A stretch of 64,000 nucleotides of DNA from Bdellovibrio bacteriovorus (GTDB lineage Bacteria; Bdellovibrionota; Bdellovibrionia; Bdellovibrionales; Bdellovibrionaceae): positions 3,038,001 through 3,102,000 of the forward strand of contig NZ_CP102930.1 of NCBI RefSeq assembly GCF_025558485.1, read 5' to 3'. Below are positions 13,214 through 23,211 of this stretch, piece after piece (positions within the stretch are counted from its first letter, which is position 1; every line of letters starts with the position of its first letter). Both the position numbers and the translations under genes were made by a program. A model generated the notes under the pieces. The model searched no databases. It worked only from the letters and a program-made list of their open reading frames with translations, and was not told the DNA's origin.

Positions 13214-14112
13214 GACTGTTGTACCCAGTAGCCAACCCATTCATCTTTTTCCAGGCGACGGATGACAGTCAGGCCGGAGCCTTCCAGGAATTTTTCAAAG
13301 AAATGATTGTCGCGCTCTTCCAGAATACCTGTCAGCAGCATGTGGCCACCCGGTTTCAGAACGCGCATAAGGTCTTTTTTGATATTGATCAGAACGCCGT
13401 CGATGATGTTGGCAACAACAACGTCAAATTGTTCACGGATGTCTTCAATCAAAGATTCCGGAATGGAGATTTGTTCAACTTTGTTCAGCTTGATATTTTC
13501 ACGCGCTACACGGCGGGCCTCGGGATCAATCTCGATCCCTGTGACCAGCCCCATACCGGCCATTTCAGCCAGCATTGCCAGGATCGCGGTGCCAGTGCCG
13601 ACATCCAGCATGGTCCAATCACCAATTTGGCCTTTGTACTTTTCAGCCAGCTTGTGAATGAAGAACGCCATCATCTGGGTTGTCGCATGAGTTCCTGTTC
13701 CAAACGCCATGCCTGGATCAATATAAATCGGGTGCTTGCATTCCGGCGGAGGAGTCAGCCAGGAAGGAACAACCCAGAAGTCCCCGACAAGTTTGAAAGG
13801 CTTAAAGCCTTTTTTCCATTCTTCCAGCCAGTCTTTGGTTTCTTCCTCAAAGATATTCCATTTGATGCCTTCGTTAAGTTCGATCAAGCCATCAAAGAAA
13901 TTGCAACCCGGGCGTTCAGGGAAGAATACATCCAGTTCATGGGCGCGCACATGCAGAATTTGTGGATCATAAGTCAGATCAGGCTGTGTGAACGGCAAGG
14001 CTTCAGTGACGCCCGAGGCGCCACATTCAAAGCAATGTGTTGTGATAATGTCTTCAAGTTCAGCAGGAACCTGACTTAGGCGGATACGGAAGTAAGAATT
14101 TGTGTCACTCAT
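13210..14112 (-). CDS. prmA: Ribosomal protein L11 methyltransferase
   Basis: 300 residues from the ATG at 14112 (MSDTNSYFRI). The upstream extension would begin with TTG and is rejected. The N-terminal substrate-recognition domain is followed by the Rossmann methyltransferase core: IDPGMAFGTGTHATTQMM, MLDVGTGTAILAML (SAM glycine loop), and VVANIIDGVLI (the NxxxG/NPP-like motif of PrmA). It trimethylates ribosomal protein L11. The start overlaps the stop of the envelope-protein gene upstream by eight bases, so it appears translationally coupled into a run starting at a sigma28-like promoter. Confidence 0.95.
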   Translation of the reverse strand: MSDTNSYFRIRLSQVPAELEDIITTHCFECGASGVTEALPFTQPDLTYDPQILHVRAHELDVFFPERPGCNFFDGLIELNEGIKWNIFEEETKDWLEEWKKGFKPFKLVGDFWVVPSWLTPPPECKHPIYIDPGMAFGTGTHATTQMMAFFIHKLAEKYKGQIGDWTMLDVGTGTAILAMLAEMAGMGLVTGIEIDPEARRVARENIKLNKVEQISIPESLIEDIREQFDVVVANIIDGVLINIKKDLMRVLKPGGHMLLTGILEERDNHFFEKFLEGSGLTVIRRLEKDEWVGYWVQQS

Positions 14113-14731
14113 TCCGAGTGGTGTTATCAGAAACCACCGATTTTTCAAGCTTTTCTGCGGTTTGCAGGGAGGCCTGAACCACCGTCGAAGCCGTTGCCGC
14201 AGGGTTTGCAGAAACTACAGGGTTGGCAGTCTCTGTCGGGCTTGGGGTCGTGATAATTTGCGTCTGAACCACCGTCACCGTCGGGGAGGTTGCCGCCGCG
14301 GGAGTGTCCGCCTCAGAAACCTTGCGGCGTTTGGGCTTGGAGTTGTCGATAAAGGAACCGCCCAGATCAATGCGATCGCCGGTCATAATGCCGATTTGTT
14401 CTAGCATGGGTAATTCGTCACGGGATAGCAGAGTAAATTCGCGAGCCACAGCCACGCGGTCATAAACTGCAATAATTTTAAGCTGACCCACCGGAACCAT
14501 GATTTCGCCCACGGCATTGGCGCCACTGGCATCGCGCACGTTGATTTTTCTGACCGCAGTGACGACCAGATTCTTTTTTAAACCAGAGCCCGCAGTGACA
14601 TTGATGTAGAAGTCTTTGTAAACGGTGTCGTCTTCGGACAGCGTGATATTTCTACGCACATCCACTACTGACATGTCTGCAGCAAATGATGACGTCGAAA
14701 ATCCTAATAGGCATGCAATTAAGAACTTCAT
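14105..14731 (-). CDS. Periplasmic/secreted protein, unknown function
   Basis: 208 residues from the ATG at 14731. AAGGG seven bases before it and an immediate signal peptide (MKFLIACLLGFSTSSFA) rule out the 66-residue upstream extension. The mature protein has a compact domain (residues 20-120) containing VPVGQLKIIAVYDRVAVAREF, which suggests a beta-rich fold. A Thr/Pro/Ala-rich tail follows. A sigma28-type promoter (14764-14791) lies just upstream, predicting co-expression with motility genes. I do not recognise the family. The stop overlaps the start of prmA. Confidence 0.75.
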   Translation of the reverse strand: MKFLIACLLGFSTSSFAADMSVVDVRRNITLSEDDTVYKDFYINVTAGSGLKKNLVVTAVRKINVRDASGANAVGEIMVPVGQLKIIAVYDRVAVAREFTLLSRDELPMLEQIGIMTGDRIDLGGSFIDNSKPKRRKVSEADTPAAATSPTVTVVQTQIITTPSPTETANPVVSANPAATASTVVQASLQTAEKLEKSVVSDNTTRNE

Positions 14732-14763: not shown

Positions 14764-14791
14764 TTATCGGCTGTCTTATTTTGAAACTTAA
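14764..14791 (-). promoter_or_regulatory. Sigma28 (FliA)-type promoter, strong match
   Basis: On the minus strand TTAAGTTT (-35, seven of eight against TAAAGTTT), 12 bases, then GCCGATAA (-10, perfect). Predicted start is seven bases further, giving a roughly 28-base leader with GGAAGGG before the ATG at 14731. Confidence 0.7.
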
Positions 14792-14796
14792 GGGTT

Positions 14797-14822
14797 CTGG
14801 ACCTTGGTAATACCAAAGGTCC
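14797..14822. repeat. Intergenic hairpin between two small envelope genes
   Basis: GGACCTTGGTA and TACCAAAGGTCC form a near-perfect stem with one bulge, directly after the stop of the lipoprotein gene at 14823. No T-run follows on the minus strand, so it looks like an RNA-stability or attenuator hairpin rather than a full terminator. Confidence 0.55.
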
Positions 14823-15107
14823 TTAGTTGGAAACAATGGCGCCCTGAACAGAGCTATAGACCTTGTAGGTTTTATCCGCAGTGGTTTGTTCGATACCGGA
14901 CATATAGTTACCCACAGTGCTTTGCACATGGTAGGTCACGCCACCGCCTGTGGCGGTCCCTGTCTGGGTGGAACCAGAAACAAGACCTGTTGTTTTAGCA
15001 GGATCTTGAAACTTGATCGGGGAGTTTTCAGAAATCTGCTCCAGCGATGCATCCATCGAGCATCCTGAGGCAAGAATCAATAGTGAAGCCAGAACGATCC
15101 ATTTCAT
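14823..15107 (-). CDS. Small lipoprotein, unknown function
   Basis: 94 residues from the ATG at 15107, with GGAGG six bases before it. The signal peptide ends at lipobox LASGC (Cys about residue 16), then a short Gly/Thr/Ser-rich mature chain of about 78 residues (including GTATGGGVTYHVQS). No family recognised. It is driven by a sigma28-like promoter whose -10 contains the stop codon of the fibre gene upstream. Position next to two giant fibre genes suggests, without proof, an accessory role in their surface display. Confidence 0.75.
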   Translation of the reverse strand: MKWIVLASLLILASGCSMDASLEQISENSPIKFQDPAKTTGLVSGSTQTGTATGGGVTYHVQSTVGNYMSGIEQTTADKTYKVYSSVQGAIVSN

Positions 15108-15129
15108 GTGCAACCTCCGCACACTGTAC

Positions 15130-15156
15130 TTATCGGCTTGAAGCCGGAGTTCTTTG
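15130..15156 (-). promoter_or_regulatory. Sigma28 (FliA)-type promoter overlapping a stop codon
   Basis: Minus strand: CAAAG core (-35), then GCCGATAA (perfect -10), with the classic CAAA-N15-GCCGATAA spacing. The TAA of the -10 is also the stop codon of the first fibre gene. Leader to the ATG at 15107 is about 15 bases and contains GGAGG. Confidence 0.65.
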
Positions 15157-18100
15157 AGTTTTCTCATTCTGAGACCGGATATATTTCATTAGATCTGCAT
15201 TCTGTTGGCGCAGATCCTCATTTTGTTTTTGTAAGACGGTCATCTGCTTTTCCAGAGTGGAAATCCGTTCTTCATGATTTGTGAGCAGTGCTTTGAACTG
15301 ATGGTAAAGCTGCTGCACGGCGCTGGTGATCGGGGCGATCATATTCATATATGAAACGGACTTGATGCCCTTTTGATTTTGATCAACCACGTGCGGATAA
15401 ACCTGTTCCAGTTCCTGCGCGATAAAACCCATTTGCAGGCGGGGATCGGCATAGGGATCTTTCCAGTGGTACGAAGACGGCTTAAGTTGCAGAATTTTTT
15501 CCAGACTGCCTTCCAGCACCTGAATGTCTTTTTTCAAACGAATGTCCGAGGCTCCGTTCACGGTGCCCACCGTTGTCAGATTTCCGGCAGCCGACAGACT
15601 CATCTTTGATGAAACGTTGCCACCATTTTTAGTCAGGAACTCAAGGCTGCCGCCTTCCATTTCATTGGCGATATTCATAAGAATACTGCCCCCTGTGGGA
15701 ACGCCAATGTATCCACTGCGCACGGTGGGCGCCGAGGTGCGGGCAAAGAATTGAATGTAAGTATGATCCCCGGTCCCGGGCTTCAGACTTAAAATCCCCA
15801 TGCCATTGGATCCGGATTCCCCCAGAGTTAATAAGCCCGAGGCATCCAAAGACATCAACATCTGTCCGGAACCCAGATTGCCTTTATAGAAATTCAGGCG
15901 ACGAGTGGCCCCGAATTCATTTACAATATGGAAGTTGTTGGTGACGGTTGCATCACTGCCCATTTGGAATGAAGAATAAGCCGCGTTACCGGTACCGGAA
16001 CTGCCAATATGAACATTTGCCAGAGGGCTTGGGGTGTTAAAACCTGTTGGCCCTGCGAGATAGTTTTTAGCTGTGCCACTTTGTTGATAGATACTGTAGC
16101 GATTGCTCACAGCTCCACCAGTTGTCGGGGCTTGCAGGAACAGATCATACATGCTGGTAATAGTGCCTGATTGTAGATGCGGGACAATGCGAATACCGAA
16201 TGCATCTGTGGTTGCCGGGGTGTTTCCGACGACATAGTTTTCATGCCCATAGACGAACTGACCGGAAGTCAGAGAAGACACCGTTCCTGAGTCCACATTG
16301 CCGATGTAGCGGTTGCGGGTGGCATTGGAATGTAAAGCTTCATTGGTGCTGGTAACAGTCACGCCGGAAGGCACATTTGGCACGACAATGGTGACAAGAG
16401 AGTGCGTGGACAAATTTGAATTCGCCGCGGGACTGAAGCGTTGATAAGCACCTGCTGCCACATAATTACCAGTGGTTTCGGTATGGTTGCGCAACGTTGC
16501 ATTGAGCGCTTCGGTTGTGATGATACTGAAGTTGGCGGGGAATGGAGCCAGGTCCCCAATAACAGCACCGCCTTTGACCTGGAAATTGGTTGCCGGCGCA
16601 TCGGTATTGATACCCACTTTTCCGTCGGCCAGAATAGTCATGCGTGGATTGGCATCTGTTTCAAAAGTCAAAGATTGCGCATCGTTGGTTCCAAGAACTG
16701 CGGCGGCACCAAACGAGTTCCCACCATTGGCGAAGAGACCCGATGAAGAATAGGTCGTGCAGCCCATCACTCCCGAGGCATTGAAGGTCACAAGCTGGCC
16801 AACAGCACAGGTGAACGGGACAATAGTTGCTCCAGTCCCGTCAGAAGCCAATAGTCGATTTCCGGTAATTGAAGTCACACCTGTGCCACCGCTGCTGACC
16901 GGCAGGGTGCCAGTTATATCAGACGCCAGATTGATTGCAGAACCATTGGATGCCGCTGTCAGGCGACCTTGCGCATCGACGGTGATATTCGCACGCGTAT
17001 AAGCACCAGCCGCGACAGTGGTATTTGCCAGTGAAATAGTGCCCGTGGTGTTGATGGGCCCACCACTAAGACCTGTACCTGTGGCGATGTTGGTGACAGT
17101 GCCTCCGGAGTTGGCGTCGTTATCGACAGCGGGAATCCATTTATCACCGTCGTACTTTAAGACCTGACCGGAAGTTAAGCCAGTGGTGTCCACAGCGATG
17201 CCTTTGATTTTATTGACCGTCACGGCACCAATGGTCCCGCTGACATCACCTGCGACAGAAACATTGATGGACTGACAGGTAAATCCACTGACAGTATTCC
17301 AGTACATCGTCTGATGAGGAGAGCAATTTGCATTTGCAATGGCGGCGTTAAACTCCGTATCGCTCATGTAGCTATTCAAAGCGGCACTAAGTCCGCTGAC
17401 GTCACTGGTGCTGATTGCCGCTGAGGTCCATTCGGCACCAGTAAATTTTAAGAAATGATTATTGGTGGGCGGGGTCACAGAAATGGCCACCCCTTGCAGG
17501 GCGGTCACAGTGGGATTGGGATAAGTGCCACCCAGATCACCGGCGGCTCCACCGGAAGGGGTGCGGGGATCGCTAAGGCGTGGATCATTTCCGGAAGCGA
17601 CCGTATCGGCGGTGTTTCCGACATGCAAAGTCAGTTGTGGCGTGGTTGTGCCATTCACAATGGTGAGGTAGTTATTGGCGGAAGTGACATTGGAAACGGT
17701 TCCACCATTGGCGCCGGAAACTCCGACACAGGTCATGGCCGTACCATTCCATTTTAGAAAAGTTCCATCCGCACAAGGTGGCAGATTGTCCAGTAACAGG
17801 AAGTCTTCCGCTTTATTCTGTCCCAGTTTTTCTGATGAAAGGGCGTAGGCGGCGTAGGGAACCGTGCGGATTTCATTGGAAGGAGAAATGACTTTCCAGC
17901 CAGAGCCATCATGGAATTGCACTTTCAATAGACGGGTGTCACCGGCCTGAGCCGGATACGTGGAATTGCCATAGCAGTTGTGTGTTTTACTGTTGCTAAA
18001 GGCATCCAGCAAAGTGAACAGTGGATCGGTTGGGAAAAGTTTTGTTCCGGAGCCAATAGGTACGTCAAAAACTCCGGATGAATTCAGCATGTTGATGCCA

Positions 18101-18297
18101 TCTTTTTGTTCGCGATAAATAACACAACCACCAGTGGGGCTGGTGATTTCAAATAAGAAGCTGACACTGCTATTTTCCAAAGGCTGGCCATTGGATTTAA
18201 TAATCCGTCCCTGATAGGTCAGGGAATTTGGAGAAGCCTGTGCAATAAAAGCACAAAGCCATGAGAGTAATACAAAAAGACACGTTCCGTTTCTCAT
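15130..18297 (-). CDS. Giant fibre-like surface protein with C-terminal S74 (endosialidase-type) chaperone
   Basis: 1055 residues. Signal peptide (about 21 residues, cleavage after AQA). The N-terminal domain (PNSLTYQGRIIKSNGQPLE onward, to about residue 150) is shared with the neighbouring paralogue. A long Gly/Thr/Ser/Asn-rich stretch follows, with repeats such as GGTVTNIATGTGLSGGPINT, typical of trimeric beta-rich phage tail fibres. The last 139 residues are an S74 intramolecular chaperone beginning at Ser917-Asp918 (SDIRLKKDI), the usual self-cleavage dyad, and ending in a coiled coil. Proteins of this architecture are described at the Bdellovibrio prey interface; the ligand here is unknown. 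It has a sigma28-like -10 seven bases before the ATG and no ribosome binding site. Confidence 0.88.
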   Translation of the reverse strand: MRNGTCLFVLLSWLCAFIAQASPNSLTYQGRIIKSNGQPLENSSVSFLFEITSPTGGCVIYREQKDGINMLNSSGVFDVPIGSGTKLFPTDPLFTLLDAFSNSKTHNCYGNSTYPAQAGDTRLLKVQFHDGSGWKVISPSNEIRTVPYAAYALSSEKLGQNKAEDFLLLDNLPPCADGTFLKWNGTAMTCVGVSGANGGTVSNVTSANNYLTIVNGTTTPQLTLHVGNTADTVASGNDPRLSDPRTPSGGAAGDLGGTYPNPTVTALQGVAISVTPPTNNHFLKFTGAEWTSAAISTSDVSGLSAALNSYMSDTEFNAAIANANCSPHQTMYWNTVSGFTCQSINVSVAGDVSGTIGAVTVNKIKGIAVDTTGLTSGQVLKYDGDKWIPAVDNDANSGGTVTNIATGTGLSGGPINTTGTISLANTTVAAGAYTRANITVDAQGRLTAASNGSAINLASDITGTLPVSSGGTGVTSITGNRLLASDGTGATIVPFTCAVGQLVTFNASGVMGCTTYSSSGLFANGGNSFGAAAVLGTNDAQSLTFETDANPRMTILADGKVGINTDAPATNFQVKGGAVIGDLAPFPANFSIITTEALNATLRNHTETTGNYVAAGAYQRFSPAANSNLSTHSLVTIVVPNVPSGVTVTSTNEALHSNATRNRYIGNVDSGTVSSLTSGQFVYGHENYVVGNTPATTDAFGIRIVPHLQSGTITSMYDLFLQAPTTGGAVSNRYSIYQQSGTAKNYLAGPTGFNTPSPLANVHIGSSGTGNAAYSSFQMGSDATVTNNFHIVNEFGATRRLNFYKGNLGSGQMLMSLDASGLLTLGESGSNGMGILSLKPGTGDHTYIQFFARTSAPTVRSGYIGVPTGGSILMNIANEMEGGSLEFLTKNGGNVSSKMSLSAAGNLTTVGTVNGASDIRLKKDIQVLEGSLEKILQLKPSSYHWKDPYADPRLQMGFIAQELEQVYPHVVDQNQKGIKSVSYMNMIAPITSAVQQLYHQFKALLTNHEERISTLEKQMTVLQKQNEDLRQQNADLMKYIRSQNEKTQRTPASSR

Positions 18298-18304
18298 GTG
18301 TTAC

Positions 18305-18312
18305 TTATCGGT
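18305..18312 (-). promoter_or_regulatory. Sigma28-like -10 element of first fibre gene (leaderless)
   Basis: ACCGATAA on the minus strand (seven of eight against GCCGATAA), exactly seven bases upstream of the ATG at 18297. The -35 is poor, so this call depends on the -10 and on the parallel at the second fibre gene. Confidence 0.5.
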
Positions 18313-18337
18313 TGTTTGGGGAATTAAATAGAGCTAA

Positions 18338-18362
18338 ATCCCCGAAATCCTACGGGGATTTA
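18338..18362 (-). terminator. Intrinsic terminator after second fibre gene
   Basis: AAATCCCC and GGGGATTT form an 8-bp stem with a nine-base loop, just downstream of the stop at 18370 on the minus strand. The T-run is short. Confidence 0.6.
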
Positions 18363-18369
18363 ATGAATT

Positions 18370-21300
18370 TTACTTCTTTTTCTGACAGACTTTGGCTTTG
18401 GGATTCACTTCGCAAACTGCTTCGCGCAGTTCCTGATTTTCCTGCTTCAAAGAGGCGATTTCTCGTTTTTGCGCAGCGACTTCCGCTGTTACACCTGCAA
18501 TGGATTTATAAAGCTCTTTAAAGGCTTCAATCATGGGACCAATCAGTTTGGTGTAGGCCACGGCACGGAAACCCTTCTCATCTTTATCGACGGCTTCAGG
18601 GAAGACCTTTTCAACATCCTGAGCGATCACACCCATGTCTTTTCTTTCTGTGAATTTAAGATCGGGACGAACCTCATGACGCCAGTCGAAGGTGACCCCG
18701 CGCAAAGAAAGAATTTTTTGCAGGGATTCAGGAATGACTTCGATATGAGTCTTCAAGCGTTCATCCGACAAGTTTTCCCAGGCATTCGTACCGCCGGAAG
18801 TTCCATTCACATAGAAGGTGCGCGCAGCAGAAGCTGTGTTGATACCGACTTGTCCAGACGGGTTGATCGAAATACGATGCACATTTTTTTGCATGATATA
18901 CAGATTACAGGTGGAGGAACTGGAGGCATCGCAGATGTGCATATAGGCATCACCACGTCCACTGCCTCCGGTAGAGTTCCCCAATCTGAAGGCTTCGCCT
19001 GCCACGCCGTTATCGATGGAAAGGGGAGCGCTGGAATACAGATAACCTGTGGAGGCGATTTCCAAACGAGATGTTGGGTTGGACAAGCCAATACCGATGT
19101 AACCATTGGAGTGAATACGCATGCGCTCTGCAAAGCTATTGCTTGCCAGAGTGTTGAAAGTCATCACTGATGACTTGGTAGTCGCAAAATCACTGGCAGC
19201 ATAAGCGTGAATTTTCGCGCTATCTGCAAAAGTGCTTCCGTCATGCCCCCGGAAGGACAGGAAGCCCAAGCTGTCATTTGTTTGTACGGCCGCCGCGGCA
19301 CCTGCGTTGTCGCGGGCACGGGTCACAATTACAGCCCCTTCACCGGTGGAGCTGGTTTGCGATTGAATGTACAGATCGTCATTTCCGCCGCCATTTCCCT
19401 TCATGTGGAATCCGCGTTCGGGGCCGGTCAGCAGAGTGCTGCCGATGGCAATTCCACCGGGCACCACCAGTTTCAGGTCCTGCGTGGATCGCCAGTCTCC
19501 TTGGGTGTTGGCATTGCCGATCATAACCGTGCTGTTTGCCGGATTAGCGGCAGGACCAAGTCCCCAGTAGCCAGTGCTGTTCCAGTTTCCGACGAATTGG
19601 GCCTGACCTAAAGTGTTGTGATAAGAGCCGACGAAGACCGCGTTGTAGTTGGCAGTGGCATTCCATTCGCCGACTTGCAGACGGGCGCCGGGGCTTTCGG
19701 CATCAATGCCGACCTTACCGTCATTCGTGATGCGCATTTTTTCGAGGTTGTTTGTATCAAAAATAATATGCGCATCCGCGCCATTGGACAGATAAAGATC
19801 TGAGGTCGCAGTATTGGCGTAACCGAATGTACCCATCCAAGTGCCGTTTCTAAGGAAGTCCATTTCAACCTTCCCCGCTGCCGGAGAATTCAGTACCAGG
19901 GCAGACTTGGTGGTCGCAGGAGCCATGACTGCCAGTGCGGCGGTATTGTCCGGAGCCTGACCAATCCCCACGTATCCGTCTTTATGAATTGTCATGCGGG
20001 TGGTGGCGGTGGTTTCAAAACCTAAAGAGTAGGCATCGTTCGTACCCAGTGTGGCATTGGCGGACAACGAATTTCCACCATTGGCAAAGAATCCTGCCGA
20101 AGCAAAATTCGTACAACCCATCACACCCGAGGCATTAAATGTGATCATCTGCGTGGCACCGCACGTGAATGGAATCACCGCAGAACCTGTTGTGTTCGAC
20201 ACCAGCAGGCGATCCCCAACTATGGAGGTCACACCGGTGCCCCCTTTACTGACAGGAACAGTGGCGGTGAAGTTGGCAGGGTCGGCACCCAGTGTGGCCC
20301 ATTTCACACCCGCGGTCACTGCGCTGTCGGCGGTCAGAACCTGTCCGTTGCCCCCTGCGGGCAGACGGATGTTGTTAGTCGCATCACGAACCAGAATGTC
20401 CCCTTTTGCTGTCAGAGGGGAAAGAGCATTGATCGCTCCCAGTGCAGTCGTTGCACCGGTGCCTCCGTTTGCAATTGGCAGGGTGCCTGTAATATCCGAA
20501 GCCAGGTTGATGGCAGCGCCACTGGCAGCGGAGGTCAAGCGGCCTTGCGCATCCACGGTGATGGTGGCGCGAGTGTAAGTTCCGGGGGTCACAGCAGTGT
20601 TGGCCAGAGCAATGGTTCCTGTTGTGTTGATCGTGCCACCAGTCAGACCTGTGCCTGTGGTGATACTTGTGACAGTCCCGCCAGAGGAAGTGTCAGTATC
20701 GTTGGCACATTCCCAACGGTTGTTCGCGCCAATCCATTTTAGAACTTGCCCGTCACCGCAGGCGGAATTGTTAGGACGATAAGTCAGATACTTTCCAGCG
20801 GCACTGGCAATGTCGCTGGCATCCAAAGTGATTGCACCCGTGCGCCCTGCAACACTTGTTACCGGGAAAGCAATGGCCGCGTTCCCTGCAGCAGTCAGAC
20901 GACCTTGGGCATCCACTGTGAAGGTCGCAACTTGAGTTGTTGATCCGTAAGAATTTGGAGTCACGGCCGTGTTGGCCAGCGAGATGGTTCCGGTGGTGTT
21001 GATCGGACCTCCACTTAAACCGGTGCCCGTGGCGATGTTAGTGACAGTCCCGCCAGAATTGGCATCTTCGTCCGCAGCCGGAGCCCATTTGTTACCGTCA
21101 TATTTCAGCACCTGCCCTGTGCTCAGACCGGTTGTATCGACAGGAACACCTTTGATTTTATTCAAAGAAGTGGCGCCAATCGTGCCACCGATATCACCTG
21201 CGACAGAAACATTGATGGACTGACAGGTAAAGCCACCTACAGCATTCCAGTACATTGTCTGGTGAGCAGCACAGCCCGCATTGGCTACGGCCGTGCTAAA

Positions 21301-22245
21301 CTCCGCATCAGTCATGTAGGTGTTCAAAGTGGCAGACAGTCCACTGACATCACTTTGGCTGATGGCAGAGGCGGTCCACTCTGTACCGACATATTTCAGG
21401 AATTGATTTCCCGTGGGAGGTGTGGCGGAAACGGCCACGCCTTGAATTTTTTCAACAGTGGGGGAAGGGTAGTTGCCGGATAAATCTCCACTGGCACCGC
21501 CTGTCGGAGCCCGCGCATCCGTGAAGCGTGGATCATTCCCCGCCGCGACGGTACCAGCCGTTTGACCTACATTGAGGGTTAAAACAGGAGTGGTGGCGCC
21601 ATCAGTGACGGTCAGGGCGGGATTGGCAGAGCTGACATTGGTGACAGTGCCGCCATTGGCCCCTGAAATCCCGGCGCAGGAAAGTGTGCTGCCCGTGCGG
21701 GTCAGGAACGTGTTGGCTGGGCAAACTGGGAAATCAGTTTTCAGGAAGAAATCATCAATGACATTAGCACCCAGCATTTCTGCGGATTTAGCATAAGCTG
21801 CGTAAGGCACAGTGCGAATTTCATTCGCTGGAGAAATTACTTTCCATCCGGAACCATCATGGAACTGAACTTTCAGAAAACGAATGTCGCCAGAGACGGC
21901 TTGATACTTGGAGCCCCCGGCACAGTTGTGTTCCAGAGTGTTGTTGAAGGCGTCCAGCAAGGTAAACAGCGGGTCTGTCGGGAACATTTTTGTTCCGGAA
22001 CCGATAGGGACATCAAAGACCCCGCCGGAGTTTTGCAGATTCACACCATTTTTCTGTTCACGATAGATGACACAGGTCCCGTTGGGGCTGGTGATTTCAA
22101 AAAGGAAGCTGACGTTGCTGTATTCAAGGCCTTTGCCGTCACTGTTGACGATGCGCCCTTGATAAGTCAGAGAATTTGGAGCCGCGATGGCGACTCCAGT
22201 CCATAGGAGTACGAGAATTTTAAGCAGGTACGTTCCGACTCTCAT
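18370..22245 (-). CDS. Giant fibre-like surface protein with C-terminal S74 chaperone, tandem paralogue
   Basis: 1291 residues with the same plan as the 1055-residue neighbour. A signal peptide is followed by the shared N-domain (PNSLTYQGRIVNSDGKGLE), and then an even longer fibre body with at least three GGTVT-N/S-I-type modules. The S74 chaperone starts at Ser1160-Asp1161 (SDERLKTHIEVIP), and a coiled coil forms the tail. The N-domain and the first fibre modules are very similar to the neighbour at DNA level. The central and distal body differ, with motifs such as SLGFLSFRGHDGSTFADSAK. Likely trimeric, surface exposed, and matured by cutting off its chaperone. A sigma28-like promoter lies seven bases before the ATG. 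Confidence 0.88.
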   Translation of the reverse strand: MRVGTYLLKILVLLWTGVAIAAPNSLTYQGRIVNSDGKGLEYSNVSFLFEITSPNGTCVIYREQKNGVNLQNSGGVFDVPIGSGTKMFPTDPLFTLLDAFNNTLEHNCAGGSKYQAVSGDIRFLKVQFHDGSGWKVISPANEIRTVPYAAYAKSAEMLGANVIDDFFLKTDFPVCPANTFLTRTGSTLSCAGISGANGGTVTNVSSANPALTVTDGATTPVLTLNVGQTAGTVAAGNDPRFTDARAPTGGASGDLSGNYPSPTVEKIQGVAVSATPPTGNQFLKYVGTEWTASAISQSDVSGLSATLNTYMTDAEFSTAVANAGCAAHQTMYWNAVGGFTCQSINVSVAGDIGGTIGATSLNKIKGVPVDTTGLSTGQVLKYDGNKWAPAADEDANSGGTVTNIATGTGLSGGPINTTGTISLANTAVTPNSYGSTTQVATFTVDAQGRLTAAGNAAIAFPVTSVAGRTGAITLDASDIASAAGKYLTYRPNNSACGDGQVLKWIGANNRWECANDTDTSSGGTVTSITTGTGLTGGTINTTGTIALANTAVTPGTYTRATITVDAQGRLTSAASGAAINLASDITGTLPIANGGTGATTALGAINALSPLTAKGDILVRDATNNIRLPAGGNGQVLTADSAVTAGVKWATLGADPANFTATVPVSKGGTGVTSIVGDRLLVSNTTGSAVIPFTCGATQMITFNASGVMGCTNFASAGFFANGGNSLSANATLGTNDAYSLGFETTATTRMTIHKDGYVGIGQAPDNTAALAVMAPATTKSALVLNSPAAGKVEMDFLRNGTWMGTFGYANTATSDLYLSNGADAHIIFDTNNLEKMRITNDGKVGIDAESPGARLQVGEWNATANYNAVFVGSYHNTLGQAQFVGNWNSTGYWGLGPAANPANSTVMIGNANTQGDWRSTQDLKLVVPGGIAIGSTLLTGPERGFHMKGNGGGNDDLYIQSQTSSTGEGAVIVTRARDNAGAAAAVQTNDSLGFLSFRGHDGSTFADSAKIHAYAASDFATTKSSVMTFNTLASNSFAERMRIHSNGYIGIGLSNPTSRLEIASTGYLYSSAPLSIDNGVAGEAFRLGNSTGGSGRGDAYMHICDASSSSTCNLYIMQKNVHRISINPSGQVGINTASAARTFYVNGTSGGTNAWENLSDERLKTHIEVIPESLQKILSLRGVTFDWRHEVRPDLKFTERKDMGVIAQDVEKVFPEAVDKDEKGFRAVAYTKLIGPMIEAFKELYKSIAGVTAEVAAQKREIASLKQENQELREAVCEVNPKAKVCQKKK

Positions 22246-22252
22246 GCTTATC

Positions 22253-22279
22253 TTGTCGGATTTTTAACAGAAAACATGA
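22253..22279 (-). promoter_or_regulatory. Sigma28 (FliA)-type promoter of second fibre gene (leaderless)
   Basis: Minus strand TCATGTTT (six of eight for the -35), exactly 11 bases, then TCCGACAA (six of eight for the -10), then seven bases to the ATG at 22245. No ribosome binding site lies between. Confidence 0.55.
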
Positions 22280-22320: not shown

Positions 22321-23211
22321 TTAGCTTTGTCTCGTTTTGAGAGAAGTCGTGTTGATGACCAGAGCCGCACCGATCACCAGTGCCCCCAGGATTTGAATGG
22401 GGCTTAGGGATTCTTTAAAGATGACGGCTCCCATGATTGCTGCGGTGATGGGTTCAATCATCATCAGTAAGGCGACTTCGGTGCTTTTTAGTTTTTGCAG
22501 TGCTGCCAGTTCAAAGGTCAGGGGGATGATCGTGCAGACCAAGGCCAGACCTAAAATGCTGGAAGCCTGAATGTTGGAAAGGTTTTGAATCGCTGAAAAG
22601 TGCGGATGATGAAACAACGACAACGCCAGTGCACCGAAGGTAATTACATACAGGGACGAGGAAATCGGCCGAACATTTTTTTGTAGGCGTCCGGAAAGTA
22701 AAACATAGATCGCATAGCTGATGGCGGAAGCCAGCCCGGCACCGATGGCCCAGATGTTTTTAACTTCGATATGTCCCCATAAAAGCAGAACCAAACCACC
22801 GGAGGCTGCGAGCAGACACAAAGCCTCGCGACGGGAAATTTTGTCTTCAGTAAAGAAGTGCGAAAAGATATTCACCCAGAACGGGTAAGTGTAAAGTAGC
22901 AGAGCCGCCAAGGTGACGCTGAGGCCCTGAACGGCCGTGAAGTACAAAGTGGAAAAGAAGGCATAACCAAAGATTCCCAGCAATGCCGCTATTACGGTCT
23001 GGCGCAGATTCAGGCGCACCCAGGAGGGGCGGAACAGCAGCAAGCCGATCCACATCAACACCGCGGCCAGAGTGAAGCGATAGGAAAGCACCTCGCCGAC
23101 TGACAAGCCGGAATCAAAGCCCCATTTTCCGAAGACCCCTAAAAAGCCAAAACCCACGCTCGCCAGGGATATTTCAATAGTTCCGCGAAGACGTGGGTTT
23201 ATATTTTTCAT
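22321..23211 (-). CDS. EamA/DMT-superfamily inner-membrane transporter
   Basis: 296 residues with about ten hydrophobic helices in two repeated EamA halves (about residues 10-140 and 155-285). The second half ends with the usual LMMIEPITAAIMGAVIFKE block. DMT transporters export metabolites or amino acids; the substrate cannot be read here. It begins nine bases after the rluB stop and is probably co-transcribed with it. Confidence 0.9.
   Translation of the reverse strand: MKNINPRLRGTIEISLASVGFGFLGVFGKWGFDSGLSVGEVLSYRFTLAAVLMWIGLLLFRPSWVRLNLRQTVIAALLGIFGYAFFSTLYFTAVQGLSVTLAALLLYTYPFWVNIFSHFFTEDKISRREALCLLAASGGLVLLLWGHIEVKNIWAIGAGLASAISYAIYVLLSGRLQKNVRPISSSLYVITFGALALSLFHHPHFSAIQNLSNIQASSILGLALVCTIIPLTFELAALQKLKSTEVALLMMIEPITAAIMGAVIFKESLSPIQILGALVIGAALVINTTSLKTRQS

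Follow-up and report, generated by a model that had tools for sequence, protein, structure and literature searches.

Four surface genes and the promoters in front of them

The window, which is the whole 64-kb stretch of DNA analysed here, contains a minus-strand run of four genes: an S74-type MAT fibre, a second S74-type MAT fibre, a lipoprotein and a secreted protein. Genes and promoters are named below by the first coordinate of the gene (22245, 18297, 15107 and 14731). In the direction of transcription, the features are:

22330..22342, no strand: palindrome TCTCGTTTTGAGA, differing from TCTCA-N3-TGAGA at one position, 5′ of the 22245 promoter
22275..22279, minus strand: TCATG, a weak -35-like element of 22245, 15 nt upstream of CCGACA
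22252..22259, minus strand: -10 box CCGACAAG of 22245, separated by 6 nt from the ATG, whose A is at 22245
18370..22245, minus strand: MAT fibre gene, 1291 aa, with signal peptide, N-terminal MAT domain and C-terminal Peptidase_S74 (SDERLK)
18334..18363, minus strand: terminator-like hairpin between the two fibre genes, after the first
18328..18332, minus strand: expected -35 position of 18297 (TCTAT), a poor match
18304..18311, minus strand: -10 box CCGATAAG of 18297, separated by 6 nt from the ATG, whose A at 18297 is the predicted +1
15130..18297, minus strand: MAT fibre gene, 1055 aa, with signal peptide, N-terminal MAT domain and C-terminal Peptidase_S74 (SDIRLK)
15162..15174, no strand: exact palindrome TCTCATTCTGAGA, directly upstream of the 15107 -35
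15153..15157, minus strand: -35 TCAAA of 15107, with 16 nt between it and the -10; most orthologues have a CTCAA-like sequence
15129..15136, minus strand: -10 box CCGATAAG of the lipoprotein gene, conserved in orthologues
15114..15118, minus strand: Shine-Dalgarno GGAGG of the lipoprotein gene
14823..15107, minus strand: 94-aa lipoprotein gene, with signal peptide and lipobox ...LASGCSMDA
14787..14791, minus strand: -35 TTAAG of 14731, with a spacer to the -10 of exactly 16 nt
14774..14786, no strand: relaxed palindrome TTTCAAAATAAGA, filling the spacer of the 14731 promoter
14765..14770, minus strand: -10 CCGATA of 14731
14105..14731, minus strand: gene for a 208-aa secreted protein that is conserved throughout the order and has a predicted beta-barrel domain

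The host genome is a single contig of 3.34 Mb and was searched by patterns and in selected stretches. Figures for HD100 come from a genome of the same genus taken as B. bacteriovorus HD100, in which a c-di-GMP-I riboswitch falls within the coordinates published for merRNA (1,073,741-1,074,185, minus strand; PMC3627812) and FliA boxes agree in position with the sRNA starts of the literature. The gene order there is identical and the four promoters are likewise present, with the fibre orthologues at about 3,181,757 and 3,186,533, the lipoprotein gene next and then the 14731 orthologue at 3,191,548.

In both window fibres a beta-rich domain of ~130 aa follows straight after the signal peptide and is matched by the MAT profile (A1, E about 1e-76), and the C-terminal S74 domains match PF13884 with E-values of 1e-17 and 2e-17; SDERLK and SDIRLK both fit SDxxxK. 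Among solved structures, the 22245 fibre resembles the Bdellovibrio chains 8ol4 and 8ojn, labelled 'cell wall surface anchor'. A family of 21 MAT fibre genes has been described in HD100 (Caulton et al. 2024, PMC10769870), and our MAT profile finds the same number there. The window fibres are like members of that family in combining an N-terminal MAT domain with an S74 domain carrying SDxxxK; the host genome differs in having only 6 detectable MAT genes, with 3 to 30 detected per genome across the genus. Promoters are not dealt with in the passages of that account consulted. The 14731 protein has no family match in Pfam. Its predicted barrel aligns with the C-terminal part of the flagellar H-ring protein FlgT (PDB 3w1e, 8z5n), a weak match (VIA Z 7.5, 83 residues, 17% identity) with Foldseek E-values >0.01, and we did not adopt this identity since F1-ATPase beta-barrels score level with FlgT in VIA-align.

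All four sites of the sigma28-type motif that the original prediction had placed 5′ of consecutive genes were found where it put them, on the minus strand. Its account of two recognisable -35 elements held only in part: TTAAG of 14731 lies at 16 nt, whereas TCATG of 22245 has a spacer of 15 nt, not 16, and the list was incomplete in that TCAAA of 15107, at 16 nt, had been overlooked; TCTAT of 18297 is poor. The 14731 site, TTAAGTTTCAAAATAAGACA-GCCGATAA (full promoter TTAAGTTTCAAAATAAGACAGCCGATA), is an exact match to the consensus TTAAG-N16-CCGATA published in 2013 for FliA, the attack-phase regulator of HD100 (Karunker et al., PMC3627812). This promoter is kept in 24 of 24 Bdellovibrio genomes, with -35 and -10 nearly invariant and a spacer of 16 nt in 23 genomes and 15 nt in one; its edges are sharp, identity dropping immediately 5′ of the promoter. 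The 15107 site, GCCGATAA, overlaps the final codons of the upstream fibre gene, and its -10 box is found at 18 orthologous loci, mostly with a CTCAA-like element upstream and a GAGG-type Shine-Dalgarno sequence downstream. Because 15107 has its own GGAGG, the lipoprotein transcript is expected to carry a leader. At 18297 the site is ACCGATAAG, and here, as at 14731 and 15107, the -10 CCGATA is exact. The -10 of 22245 is CCGACA, not CCGATA; the corresponding HD100 fibre gene has CCGATAAG. Given the terminator-like hairpin after the first fibre gene, the second would need a promoter of its own.

Motif counts are uninformative, as they do not rise above chance. The window has two exact copies of GCCGATAA where about 2 are expected, allowing up to 2 mismatches to the consensus yields 14 window matches against 9.4 in shuffles, and at genome scale TTAAG-N16-CCGATA at the same tolerance yields 413+414 matches against 435+430 for a reversed control. 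The case for the promoters rests instead on conservation and position. A scoring matrix trained on the MAT promoters of other genomes ranked 15107 (19.5), 14731 (18.3) and 18297 (15.9) as the top three sites in the window and 22245 as seventh (12.2). The five block-shuffled windows that served as control peak at 13.6-16.6 by the same matrix, so 18297 and 22245 are not outstanding by score alone, and for these conservation decides. Flagellin promoters were also considered as a training set and dropped, as no clear consensus was visible by eye.

A FliA sigma factor is encoded in the host genome (TIGR02479 match above cut-off, 3013404-3014075). The sigma28/FliA-type identity proposed for the sites was borne out by the consensus match, by conservation in Bdellovibrio and by agreement in class with mapped HD100 sRNA starts, and such motifs do mark attack-phase genes in Bdellovibrio, as the original prediction had stated: 92 of 140 HD100 attack-phase promoters carry the motif, cell-surface anchor genes among them (PMC3627812). 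In HD100 fliA could not be deleted, and flagellin and TAD pilus promoters assayed in E. coli were driven by FliA (PMC5430801). Conservation and position support the assignment of real, conserved FliA promoters to these four neighbouring surface genes, on sequence grounds. The promoter island would be a new member of the known FliA regulon, with which it shares the consensus, surface-protein targets and, for two of the three tabulated sRNAs, the start distance (PMC3627812). The four genes would then be switched on in free-swimming cells.

A fixed distance between the -10 box and the start codon

The fibre promoters abut the start codon, an arrangement that the original prediction had missed. 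In both window fibres 6 nt separate an 8-nt box, CCGAYAAG, from the ATG, and both island fibre genes of HD100 read CCGATAAG-N6-ATG. No Shine-Dalgarno sequence precedes 18297 or 22245, and neither window fibre has an alternative ATG, GTG or TTG start within its signal peptide.

We counted CCGATAAG-Nk-ATG for k = 1-22. The host genome holds 15 N6 sites against a mean of 1.6 at other spacings (Poisson 1.5e-10) and HD100 holds 21 against 1.95 (Poisson 3.9e-15), an over-representation of about 10-fold in each; pooled, there are 36 sites at k = 6 and a mean of 3.5 over the 21 other spacings. Spacings of 3, 9, 12 and 15, which stand in the same reading-frame relation as 6, show no such excess, evidence against a coding artefact. 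In 35 of the 36 pooled sites the N6 ATG opens a frame of at least 100 codons. A pyrimidine directly precedes the ATG at 32 of 36 N6 sites, as expected if the A is +1; for the other spacings the figure is 47 of 74 (P 0.006). In two genomes, none of the 62 CCGATAAG-ATG pairs spaced 5-9 nt apart has a Shine-Dalgarno sequence, and 12 of the 27 pairs spaced 15-22 nt apart have one. Many N6 gene products start with signal peptides or lipoboxes, and MAT fibres recur among them; ten such products of the host genome include an Ig-like-repeat surface protein, RCC1 and NHL propeller lipoproteins, and TPR, DnaJ and PilZ proteins.

The 24 genomes of the genus together hold 340 N6 sites where 43.8 are expected from spacings 9-22 (about 8-fold), with an excess in every one of them; these genomes are related and their combined counts overstate the independent evidence, a kinship that leaves the single-genome tests unaffected. 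Beyond the genus the excess is weaker, 3.0-fold for the remaining family members and 2.7-fold for the remaining members of the order. A three-row alignment search of genome contigs gave matches only in three Bdellovibrio metagenome bins.

The same layout emerges from genes selected irrespective of the motif. For 90 MAT genes of the genus the start codon was chosen by signal-peptide length, with the motif not used. CCGATA with at most 1 mismatch stands exactly 8 nt before the ATG in 62 of these, and in 48 of 74 after dereplication; 28 of the 90 lack the exact arrangement, several being off by just 1-2 nt. A sequence logo of the 74 genes displays a T-rich/A-rich -35 at -35 to -31, CCGATAAG at -14 to -7 and a pyrimidine in 86% at -1 from the ATG. 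A Shine-Dalgarno-like motif occurs in only two of the 62 leaders with the 8-nt layout.

Three attack-phase sRNAs of HD100 have FliA promoters and start sites tabulated in the literature (PMC3627812, Table 2), and these provide a calibration of the start distance. APsRNA6 reads CCGAAAAG-N6 followed by G at +1 and APsRNA7 reads CCGTAAAA-N6 followed by G at +1, whereas APsRNA3 starts 10 nt after CCGAAGAG, that is, 4 nt further down. With two of three mapped starts at the N6 distance, the A of the ATG in the fibre genes should be +1. This calibration is the strongest link from sequence to transcript, and it comprises three RNAs only, none of them a fibre gene. For a further RNA, APsRNA5 (HD100 605,617, minus strand), no FliA dependence is listed; a perfect GCCGATAAG box there predicts a start about 18 nt upstream of the listed one.

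Predicted leaderless transcripts and alternative readings

Taken together, we consider it very probable, from the sequence comparisons, that all four genes are under FliA promoters, that the fibre mRNAs are leaderless and that they are an instance of a wider class. RNA polymerase carrying FliA would transcribe the four genes from one promoter each. The 14731 and 15107 transcripts would have ordinary leaders with a Shine-Dalgarno sequence, whereas in the fibre genes the -10 would be placed for transcription to begin on the A of the ATG, and the ribosome would have to recognise a 5′-terminal AUG. This leaderless layout may extend to a sizeable part of the Bdellovibrio FliA regulon, chiefly genes for MAT fibres and for large surface lipoproteins. 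Several points count against this explanation, namely the weak -35 elements at 18297 and 22245, CCGACA at 22245, the offset of APsRNA3 and the 28 exceptions among the 90 MAT genes. In an HD100 reporter study, omission of the ribosome-binding site strongly lowered expression from FliA-motif promoters, and an optimised site improved three of four native promoters (PMC12622784); from these results leaderless starts may be weak.

The fibre genes might also use ordinary FliA promoters with transcripts that begin slightly further upstream, or at a distant second promoter, giving a leadered mRNA that simply has no Shine-Dalgarno sequence. The APsRNA3 start demonstrates that the distance can vary, and some MAT genes have their -10 1-5 nt further out. 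However, a leader cannot fit where the box stops 6 nt short of the ATG, the spacing from -10 to ATG is fixed genus-wide, and a terminator-like hairpin sits just upstream of 18297. A start 5′ of the box would require a different promoter, and a sigma70-type scan of the region gave nothing above shuffles. We regard an upstream start as unlikely.

It is highly improbable that CCGATAAG is a translation signal, a weak Shine-Dalgarno-like variant near the start codon instead of a -10 box. Its position 7-14 nt before the ATG falls in the usual range of ribosome-binding sites, and it ends in TAAG, but the same box also stands far upstream of start codons preceded by a Shine-Dalgarno sequence of their own (at 15107 and in its orthologues), it precedes non-coding sRNAs at the mapped start, and the logo places a -35 signal 16 nt upstream of it. 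That the sites are chance matches of a short motif in intergenic DNA would fit window counts that do not exceed shuffles; conservation of both sequence and position in orthologues, and a spacing peak far outside chance, make such a coincidence hardly credible.

The usual description of leaderless mRNAs is that they are widespread in actinobacteria, Deinococcus and archaea, where they are made from housekeeping promoters. The predicted fibre transcripts resemble these leaderless mRNAs of bacteria and archaea in having the promoter at the start codon, a predicted 5′-end AUG and no Shine-Dalgarno sequence. They differ in that the Bdellovibrio class is tied to one alternative sigma factor and to surface proteins. 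The main text of the HD100 regulon study mentions neither leaderless transcripts nor a fixed distance to the start codon (PMC3627812), and we found no mention of leaderless transcripts in Bdellovibrio in the open-access literature, the scope of our search. As far as checked, the leaderless FliA class is a new variant, the FliA regulon, its consensus and the MAT fibres being already known.

If the leaderless reading is true, many surface genes of Bdellovibrio, including the presumed prey-recognition fibres, are expressed without ribosome-binding sites. This would affect gene annotation and also the design of reporter and expression constructs, as adding or omitting a leader would alter the biology, and it would bear on how a non-growing attack-phase cell selects mRNAs for translation.

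A palindrome upstream of the promoters

The palindrome TCTCA-N3-TGAGA is present in 46 copies in the host genome and 54 in HD100, where about 3 are expected and a reversed control gives 1-2, and the ten other genomes of the order that were tested likewise have more copies than expected. In many of the promoters examined it lies 40-110 nt upstream of CCGATAAG (the orthologues among these are not independent), always with a 3-nt centre: no palindrome with an N2 or N4 centre was found upstream of the promoters examined. Of 46 HD100 palindromes inspected, ten are flanked on one side by an exact CCGATAAG no more than 95 nt away, where 0.12 would be expected; leaving out five copies from stretches chosen for other reasons brings the figure to 5 of 41. 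Within the window, the palindrome is exact 5′ of 15107 (the HD100 orthologue reads TCTCAAAATGAGA at 3191012), has one mismatch 5′ of 22245 and is relaxed in the 14731 spacer, where its arms are largely conserved in the genus and its centre is variable. As the relaxed form is not enriched in the window alone, the case rests on the whole-genome counts.

TCTCA-N3-TGAGA is probably the operator of a putative regulator, and that a putative dimeric protein binds it is a reasonable guess. More broadly, the predatory surface programme may run via a FliA regulon with leaderless fibre and lipoprotein mRNAs, attack-phase genes being marked by FliA transcription as well as by a distinct mode of translation initiation, joined at many promoters by the putative dimeric TCTCA-N3-TGAGA regulator; we offer this composite picture tentatively and consider it rather doubtful as a whole.

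Two further observations were made around these promoters. GGACC/GGTCC words and inverted repeats (e.g. GGACCTTTGGTATTACCAAGGTCC, CTGGACCTAGGTCC) recur just 5′ of promoters, in the window at about 14795-14822 and also upstream of many orthologues and of other promoters. An exact TCTCA-N3-TGAGA palindrome lies about 280 bp upstream of fliA, inside the preceding CDS, both in HD100 (3233777-3233789) and in the host genome.
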